Source: Acinetobacter pittii (lineage in GTDB: Bacteria; Pseudomonadota; Gammaproteobacteria; Pseudomonadales; Moraxellaceae). Taken from it: a stretch of 64,000 nucleotides of DNA. This document shows, piece after piece, positions 52,204 to 53,544 of this stretch. Position 1 is the first letter of the stretch. Every line of letters starts with the position of its first letter. The notes beneath the pieces were generated by a model. The model saw only the letters and a list, made by a program, of their open reading frames with translations. It had not been told where the DNA came from and did no database searches. The stretch lies in NCBI RefSeq assembly GCF_034067285.1, contig NZ_CP139286.1, positions 372,001-436,000 on the forward strand. Reading direction: 5' to 3'. A program made the translations under genes and the position numbers.

Positions 52204-52641
52204 TTAGATTTCTAAAAAGGCAATAGGGGAGTGAGTAGGAGTAGATTTTGAGTGCTGTAAAACTTCTCCGAGTGTGTATTGGTCTAGGCTTTGATAAAAG
52301 CTCTCTAGAGCTTGATCTAAAATACCTTTTAAACCACAGTGACTGCGTAATACACAAGGGGGCGTATTGCACTCAACGATTTGATTATCACCCTGTAATA
52401 TTCGAACAATTGAACCTAAATTTGAGTTAAGTGCATCTGGGTTTAAGCGTATTCCACCACCTTTTCCACGAATGGTAATAATCCATTCTTGTTTGCCCAT
52501 AAAGTGAACAACTTTAACCAGATGGTTTTGTGAAACATGCAAATCTTTCGCGATTTCTGCAATCGTGTAGGGTGCATCACTTGGGCGTGCAACATACATT
52601 AATATTCGTAATGCATAATCGGTAAATTTATTAAGCTGCAT
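52204..52641 (-). CDS. nsrR: Nitric-oxide-sensing Rrf2-family repressor NsrR
   Basis: 145 residues from ATG 52641 (MQLNKFTDYALRILMYVA). The N-terminal winged helix is followed by three cysteines, C91, C96 and C102 in VECNTPPCVLRSHC, the C-x4-C-x5-C pattern and numbering of the NsrR iron-sulfur cluster, unlike IscR. NO damage to the cluster relieves repression. The call is supported by a perfect NsrR operator in front of the globin gene directly upstream. An AAGATGATCATC half-site-like sequence lies 30-45 bases before its own start, so partial autoregulation is possible. Confidence 0.93.
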   Translation of the reverse strand: MQLNKFTDYALRILMYVARPSDAPYTIAEIAKDLHVSQNHLVKVVHFMGKQEWIITIRGKGGGIRLNPDALNSNLGSIVRILQGDNQIVECNTPPCVLRSHCGLKGILDQALESFYQSLDQYTLGEVLQHSKSTPTHSPIAFLEI

Positions 52642-52683: not shown

Positions 52684-52715
52684 GCCTGAAAGTTTAAATA
52701 AGAAAACTTTCAGGC
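52684..52715. terminator. Strong hairpin between the globin gene and nsrR
   Basis: Perfect 12-base stem GCCTGAAAGTTT (52684-52695) / AAACTTTCAGGC (52704-52715). On the minus strand no T run follows, so it may not be a full terminator. It could let some transcription pass from the globin gene into nsrR, or protect the mRNA end. Confidence 0.6.
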
Positions 52716-52729
52716 AAGAGGTTTTTACA

Positions 52730-53494
52730 TTACAGCGTTAAAGGAGCTGAAACCTGCACTTGATCACCCACTCTGTAATGCTCAAGTAAAATATTAGCCA
52801 CCGAAAACTCAGTATGGTTTTCTTCAGGCTGAACATCGAAGTGATATGAGTTATTTTCTTGAGCTTCTGTAAATTTAAAAGCTTTTGGTTGTTCAAGTTG
52901 TTGCTCTGGAACTTGTACTTTAACCGAAATAAAAGCATTGGCTGGACCAGTTAATACGTCCTCATGGTCAGTTGCTTTTAAAGTAAAACGTTTGCCAGAT
53001 TCAAGAGGATCAATTTGTGTAATCTCAAATGAGCGCCAGCCAGCCCATCCACCTTTTAAGCTCTCAAGTTGTTCATACTTTTGTTTTTCAACGCCAATTA
53101 AAATGTCTGCTAATTGTAGATAAGCTTGCTTCCATGCCTCGATAAGTTCTGATTCAAATGGCACATTGAGTACTTCACTAATTGAATGAAGTAGGTTGTC
53201 ACCAACAATTGCATATTGATCAGGCTGAATATCTAAGCTCACGTGTTTAGTGGTGATGCGTTCTACAGCTTTAGCGAGCACACTAGGGTTCTCAATATTT
53301 TCTGCATATGCAAGAACCGCAGCTGCAAGCGCGCGTGGCTGGCGTAAGCTAGTTTGATCATCTAAGTTGAAAACATTTTTTAATTCAGGGTTGTTATTCA
53401 ACATACGCTTATAAAAGTATGTAGTTAGCGTAACGCCGTGTTCACGTAAAACAGGTACGGTAGATTTAACAAGTTCAATTTGTTGTGGAGTCAT
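52730..53494 (-). CDS. Flavohaemoglobin-like globin lacking the reductase domain
   Basis: 254 residues, against about 400 for Hmp. The globin domain (1-145) is intact and very like E. coli Hmp: B10 tyrosine Y28, Q52, proximal histidine H84, Y94 and E136 are all present. Residues 150-254 follow the outline of the FAD-binding domain but have lost its flavin motif (RxYS replaced by KAFKFTE), and the protein stops at VSAPLTL where Hmp continues into the NAD-binding domain. A stable hairpin follows the stop. NO detoxification would need an outside reductase; NO binding or sensing is possible. It is NsrR-controlled by its operator. Confidence 0.9.
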   Translation of the reverse strand: MTPQQIELVKSTVPVLREHGVTLTTYFYKRMLNNNPELKNVFNLDDQTSLRQPRALAAAVLAYAENIENPSVLAKAVERITTKHVSLDIQPDQYAIVGDNLLHSISEVLNVPFESELIEAWKQAYLQLADILIGVEKQKYEQLESLKGGWAGWRSFEITQIDPLESGKRFTLKATDHEDVLTGPANAFISVKVQVPEQQLEQPKAFKFTEAQENNSYHFDVQPEENHTEFSVANILLEHYRVGDQVQVSAPLTL

Positions 53495-53521
53495 GGCTAG
53501 ACCTTATTTATCTGGCTGTAT

Positions 53522-53544
53522 AAGATGTATTTAAAATACATCTT
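53522..53544. promoter_or_regulatory. Perfect NsrR operator
   Basis: An 11-1-11 palindrome: AAGATGTATTT (53522-53532), A, then AAATACATCTT (53534-53544). It matches the published NsrR consensus form of two AAGATGYATTT half-sites with a one-base spacer. It ends 28 bases before the start of the globin gene, over the probable promoter, so binding would block transcription until NO is present. Confidence 0.9.

Follow-up and report, generated by a model that had tools for sequence, protein, structure and literature searches.

A short flavohaemoglobin-like protein without a reductase domain at the NsrR-linked hmp locus of Acinetobacter

Introduction

How bacterial globins that have no reductase of their own come to be re-reduced is a long-standing question. 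Such globins are reported to scavenge nitric oxide (NO) only at the rate at which they are re-reduced (PMC2323109), a yeast flavohaemoglobin is said to autoxidise faster once flavin adenine dinucleotide (FAD) is missing or its reductase domain has been split off (PMC3820574), and Legionella GlbN has been proposed to act with an FNR-type reductase (PMC3820574). Here we describe a short hmp gene found in a 64,000-nucleotide stretch of Acinetobacter pittii DNA (NZ_CP139286.1, positions 372,001 to 436,000; referred to below as the window), which encodes a flavohaemoglobin-like protein of 254 amino acids (aa) having the haem pocket of Hmp, a C-terminal barrel resembling the FAD-binding domain, and no domain for binding nicotinamide adenine dinucleotide (NAD). 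On balance we think it probable, though well short of certain, that this short form is an NO dioxygenase or scavenger with a haem that is re-reduced by a separate and general reductase, and that the barrel serves as a structural lid or dock.

Architecture and conservation of the short form

The gene and its two domains are located in the window as follows:

52730..53494, minus strand: short flavohaemoglobin-like gene, 254 aa (globin plus FAD-domain-like barrel, without the NAD domain)
53054..53494, minus strand: residues 1–147, a globin domain carrying the haem-pocket residues of Hmp
52733..53053, minus strand: former FAD-binding barrel, residues 148–254, with the modelled fold kept, the FAD motif residues gone, and under purifying selection

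Globin is the sole Pfam domain above cut-off in this protein, which is 100% identical to the A. pittii ANC 4050 protein. Solved flavohaemoglobins match residues 3–251 (3ozu, E 1.6e-54), and the NCBIfam Hmp model PRK13289 spans residues 2–251 with a score of 255.6 bits, below the cut-off of 432. In a family search of 36 short proteins (E up to 0.01), Pfam Globin was matched by every one and NAD_binding_1 was absent from the six families matched, whereas all 17 full-length proteins have NAD_binding_1. The initial annotation, made from the window alone, had likewise described a protein ending at residue 254 without an NAD domain and with no decayed frame downstream, and the gap between the stop and the following nsrR gene is indeed only 88 bp.

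We aligned 76 distinct short forms with 47 full-length proteins from Acinetobacter and 73 from elsewhere (196 in total, excluding a fragment from genome G411). The haem-pocket residues listed in the initial annotation, Y28, Q52, H84, Y94 and E136 (which we take to be Tyr B10, Gln E7, His F8, Tyr G5 and Glu H23 of Hmp), are invariant across all of these sequences. Taking positions conserved in at least 95% of the 120 full-length proteins, the globin domain has 37, of which 35 reach the same level in the short forms and none has been lost. Among the 26 such positions of the C-terminal domain, nine are kept, nine are intermediate and eight are lost (E163, S169, R204, Y206, R218, G230, H237 and G253, each surviving in 10% or fewer of the short forms), and the lost positions presumably contact FAD in Hmp. 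The RxYS flavin motif is gone, as had been claimed, with the Arg found in 0/76 short and 120/120 full-length sequences; the Tyr of this motif at position 206 is Phe in 72 and Tyr in 4 of the 76 short forms, which is a mild change in a position that is aromatic throughout. The short forms have also gained near-invariant residues, including K75 (75/76) and K139 (74/76), neither of which occurs in any of the 120 full-length sequences, Y240 (73/76 versus 2/120), R51 and R54 (both 76/76) and, among others, L143.

The C-terminal domain has also kept features that would suit a protein that is still a flavoprotein, in which the altered barrel binds FAD or flavin mononucleotide differently and is reduced by the NAD domain of another protein or by free reduced flavin. 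Structural modelling predicts that the barrel retains the FAD-domain fold of Hmp, the FAD_binding_6 profile still matches 12 of the 36 short proteins (best E 2.2e-6), and the aromatic residue at position 206 remains. However, Arg204, Arg218, Gly230, His237 and Gly253, present in at least 95% of the 120 full-length sequences, are each found in no more than 10% of the 76 short forms, and we regard a retained flavin as improbable. The initial annotation had called the domain non-flavin; the loss of the motif residues was borne out, and it is from this loss that we infer the absence of flavin, with the residue at position 206 and the FAD_binding_6 matches left to be set against it.

Selective constraint on the leftover domain is almost as strong as on a functional FAD domain. 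Nei–Gojobori ratios of non-synonymous to synonymous substitution (dN/dS) for 111 pairs of short forms, with synonymous divergence (dS) of 0.1–0.9 and the pairs not being independent of each other, had medians of 0.010 for the globin and 0.040 for the C-terminal domain and a maximum of 0.244, and the medians for 44 full-length pairs were 0.011 and 0.032, respectively. Because of this purifying selection we consider that the short form is probably a working protein.

The NsrR-type operator and regulator

The following features flank the short gene:

53522..53544, no strand assigned: perfect NsrR-type palindromic operator AAGATGTATTTTAAATACATCTT, 0 mismatches
52684..52715, minus strand: hairpin with 12-bp arms in the hmp–nsrR gap, no T-run
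52204..52641, minus strand: NsrR-like regulator of the Rrf2 family (145 aa; cysteines C-x4-C-x5-C)

The operator is perfect, as first described, and sits 27 rather than 28 bases 5' of the ATG. A weak promoter-like site (53561–53533, minus strand) overlaps it, and promoter-like sites are no commoner in the operator stretch than in shuffled sequence. When up to three mismatches were allowed, the 3.69-Mb genome contained three operator sites, this one with 0 mismatches and the other two with 3, and no sites for a reversed control pattern. An operator with no more than two mismatches is found at 71 of 77 distinct short genes, which suggests that the short gene is under NsrR control. The co-oriented nsrR gene 88 bp downstream encodes a protein scoring 84.9 bits against the Rrf2 superfamily (cut-off 73.3), and its best equivalog is NsrR (PRK11014), yet at 106.1 bits this is below the cut-off of 182. 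We take the three iron–sulfur cysteines with the C-x4-C-x5-C spacing as a mark of NsrR.

The hairpin has the 12-base stem noted in the initial annotation but begins 14 bases past the stop rather than at once, and was not listed by a terminator scan. At 54 of the 77 distinct short loci, the gap has within its first 70 bases a short-looped inverted repeat of 7 bp or more, the sequence of which varies between loci; the hairpin may be an element for mRNA processing or attenuation.

The short-gene operator has 4–5 mismatches in L047, L049, L050 and L081 (A. brisouii group and A. harbinensis), where a second, full-length Hmp is present. Operators with at least four mismatches were found for 4/8 short genes accompanied by a second full-length Hmp and for 0/69 of the others (Fisher p 5e-5), though this contrast is post hoc, concerns about two lineages, and is not relied on here. 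For the second, full-length copy, the operator is perfect in L071 (G304) and L224 (G415) and has 2 mismatches in L161 (A. harbinensis). We also note that Acinetobacter sp. ANC 3832 (L115 / L186) has a second NsrR-like gene, 53% identical and on the opposite strand, approximately 2.4 kb upstream of the short hmp.

Distribution of the short form

Matches to hmp were found in 166 of 175 Acinetobacter genomes and not in the remaining nine. The short form is present in 82 of the 175, of which 73 have no full-length gene, eight have a second full-length Hmp elsewhere, and one (G411, L080) has a broken short gene with residues 1–210 and 206–252 in separate frames. The other 84 matched genomes have only an approximately 50%-identical match, with open frames of 400–448 residues in the 62 for which a length was listed. 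One of the 73 genomes with short forms only (G321, A. gerneri, L079 / L109) carries a tandem pair of short hmp genes, each having its own operator with 1 mismatch. Among the species with the short form are A. pittii, A. nosocomialis, A. calcoaceticus, A. baylyi (type strain, L111), A. ursingii and A. baumannii, and in the last of these the 254-aa gene is annotated as 'flavohemoprotein' and adjoins an Rrf2 regulator.

Beyond the genus, the frames listed at family level are full-length (G473, 420 aa; G072, G216, G236 and G276, 400–419 aa). A search of 293 genomes of the order found no match with the length and coverage of the half-length form outside Acinetobacter, and the shorter frames seen there were weak single-domain globins or fragments. 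A plasmid search returned 347 matching records, four of them at 95% or more and all from A. baumannii, and nothing among these 347 clearly pointed to a mobile short form. Three of the four, the PLSDB records NZ_CP104448.1, NZ_CP077849.1 and NZ_CP064203.1, are hmp-bearing 'plasmids' of 3.6–4.1 Mb and look like mis-filed chromosomes.

The frameshifted gene of G411 and the operators with 4–5 mismatches in four of the eight genomes that have a full-length Hmp elsewhere might be taken as signs of a decaying pseudogene or of an annotation or sequencing artefact. Against this, the short form is found in 82/175 genomes and, G411 aside, is 252–256 aa long in all 119 copies retrieved (some genomes being counted twice), with dN/dS values of 0.01 for the globin and 0.04 for the barrel. 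We give almost no credence to this explanation and have rejected it, together with a frameshift in the window, on the grounds of conservation, purifying selection and constant length. The initial annotation had supposed a settled form, and this is supported by the conservation seen across the genus, the selection acting on the appended domain, the conserved operator, and the slot shared with full-length genes.

History of the hmp locus

The order metC–DUF853–hmp–nsrR–engB–aurF is common to genomes with the short and the full-length gene, some of which lack DUF853, and no locus with both forms was present among the 239 hmp-matching loci retrieved. The full-length genes of other Acinetobacter species are approximately 50% identical to the short form and fall in a separate group, and a full-length orthologue of which the window gene could be a frameshifted copy was not seen. 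In a globin-only tree of 106 of the 196 sequences, after thinning of near-copies, the short forms cluster apart from the full-length forms of Acinetobacter and Pasteurellaceae, with full-length Ignatzschineria and Alcaligenaceae sequences placed beside the short-form base with weak support. This tree needs two changes between short and full-length, leaving one possible, and the short form is likely to have arisen once.

A tree of EngB and DUF853 from 113 loci (75 short and 38 full-length, one of the latter from another genus; loci with low EngB and duplicate genomes were dropped) requires 13 changes of state, nine of which are forced by well-supported (starred) branches, and the single-gene trees require 12 for nsrR, 12 for engB and nine for DUF853, with three to four forced. 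Because these changes are needed on the trees of neighbouring genes, hmp has been repeatedly exchanged or differentially lost, seemingly without nsrR; the nsrR tree needs as many changes as the engB tree, and NsrR therefore does not seem to travel with the short form.

This has a bearing on the suggestion that the short form might sense NO. The adjacent, co-oriented nsrR and the conservation of the altered barrel, including its new invariant residues, could be expected of an NO or redox sensor or regulator whose barrel passes a signal to NsrR itself or to some other partner. However, full-length Hmp fills the same slot next to the same nsrR in many species, and the equal number of changes in the nsrR and engB trees does not fit an NsrR that accompanies the short form; we consider such a role very improbable. 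The new near-invariant K75, K139, Y240, R51 and R54 lead us instead to propose, tentatively and as something we would not yet bet on, that the short form acts as an NO dioxygenase of two components, its barrel having been rebuilt into a module for docking or gating with a separate, shared reductase, and that the short and full-length genes are interchangeable alleles of a single NO-defence locus.

Re-reduction of the haem

Our preferred explanation, of an NO dioxygenase or scavenger served by a separate general reductase, supposes that a full-length flavohaemoglobin ancestor lost the NAD domain and the FAD-binding residues and persisted, as a stable haem protein of two domains, in the NsrR-linked hmp slot. 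NO would inactivate the iron–sulfur repressor NsrR, leading to the co-expression of the short gene and nsrR, and the oxy-haem would turn NO into nitrate within the unchanged Hmp pocket. A general reductase of the cell, most likely of the ferredoxin–NADP reductase type, would then act in trans to return the ferric haem to its reduced state, and the leftover barrel would preserve the two-domain shape of Hmp, either slowing autoxidation of the oxy-haem or docking the partner. We suggest these roles for the barrel and donor because of the reports on re-reduction rate and yeast autoxidation mentioned earlier, and because the isolated haem domain of E. coli Hmp is reported to be insufficient for the protection of cells (PMC2323109).

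A protein search of the window's genome yielded a single globin. Bac_globin was not matched there (the search did not extend to other proteins that handle NO, such as Hcp and flavorubredoxin), and there is one COX1-family gene with a frame of 664 aa. Ten NAD_binding_1 proteins are possible electron donors, and they look like BenC, AntC, PaaE, two Fpr-type reductases, and others. A dedicated, co-regulated reductase was considered and rejected, as the genome has one strong operator and the operon has no reductase.

Several observations weigh against a separate reductase. No partner reductase was found: the operon has none, and elsewhere in the genome the best operator-like sites carry three mismatches (the neighbours of these sites were not examined). 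Given the E. coli result, a form without a reductase might scavenge NO only stoichiometrically. The number of NAD_binding_1 proteins averages 8.19 in 73 short-only genomes (mean size 3.60 Mb) and 7.86 in 80 full-length genomes (mean size 3.50 Mb), and after adjustment for size the full-length genomes differ from the short-only by -0.06 +/- 0.30, where one more in the full-length genomes is the expectation without compensation; with kinship ignored in this regression, the comparison does not decide for or against compensation. (Of 173 genomes, the low-completeness G420, G443 and G447 were omitted, and up to 22 of the full-length genomes were assigned by score and not by frame length.) Finally, the accessible parts of the open literature contain no data on the activity of the short form or its response to NO; nor was a description of the missing reductase seen there, subscription papers being outside the search.

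An operon without a partner gene and the lack of a second strong operator would also suit a stoichiometric scavenger or buffer of NO (or of a sulfide or NO adduct), highly induced, slowly re-reduced and having no dedicated reductase, as would the limit that re-reduction sets for reductase-less globins (PMC2323109) and the induction of A. baumannii hmp–nsrR by sulfide (PMC7315123). Conservation of the whole barrel and the slot shared with full-length Hmp suit catalysis better, and we judge simple scavenging to be unlikely. Of the possibilities raised in the initial annotation, we favour a separate reductase over storage or sensing.

Transcripts of Acinetobacter hmp are also reported to change under imipenem selection (PMC4192346) and, for the short or full-length form, with baicalin (PMC11103975) and on desiccation (PMC13130816); in the parts available, these papers and that on sulfide regard the gene as an ordinary Hmp (PMC7315123, PMC4192346, PMC13130816, PMC11103975). 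Because the short gene is annotated and discussed in this way in A. baumannii, arguments on NO defence or on drug targets that start from the flavin and NADH sites of Hmp may not hold in this species. The locus also offers a natural paired experiment, in which related species of one genus, with one locus and one regulator, are self-sufficient or reductase-less.

Comparison with known systems

Compared with the Hmp or NO dioxygenases of E. coli (1gvh), C. necator (1cqx/3ozu) and yeast (4g1v), the short form lacks the NAD domain and the FAD-binding motif residues, and falls under the curated NCBIfam Hmp cut-off (255.6 versus 432 bits). Like Vitreoscilla VHb (1vhb) and Campylobacter Cgb (2wy4), it has a haem domain without its own reductase and would need an external donor. 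However, a single-domain protein of the VHb/Cgb type would consist of a globin of approximately 140–146 residues only, and the short form adds a conserved 107-residue barrel (residues 148–254) derived from an FAD domain; it also groups with the full-length Hmp of Acinetobacter, Pasteurellaceae and Ignatzschineria (in a globin tree that did not include VHb or Cgb). The NsrR-controlled GlbN–ferredoxin reductase operon of Legionella likewise places a reductase-less globin under NsrR (PMC3820574), but the Legionella globin is a truncated haemoglobin with a reductase gene in the operon, whereas the short hmp has no linked reductase gene.
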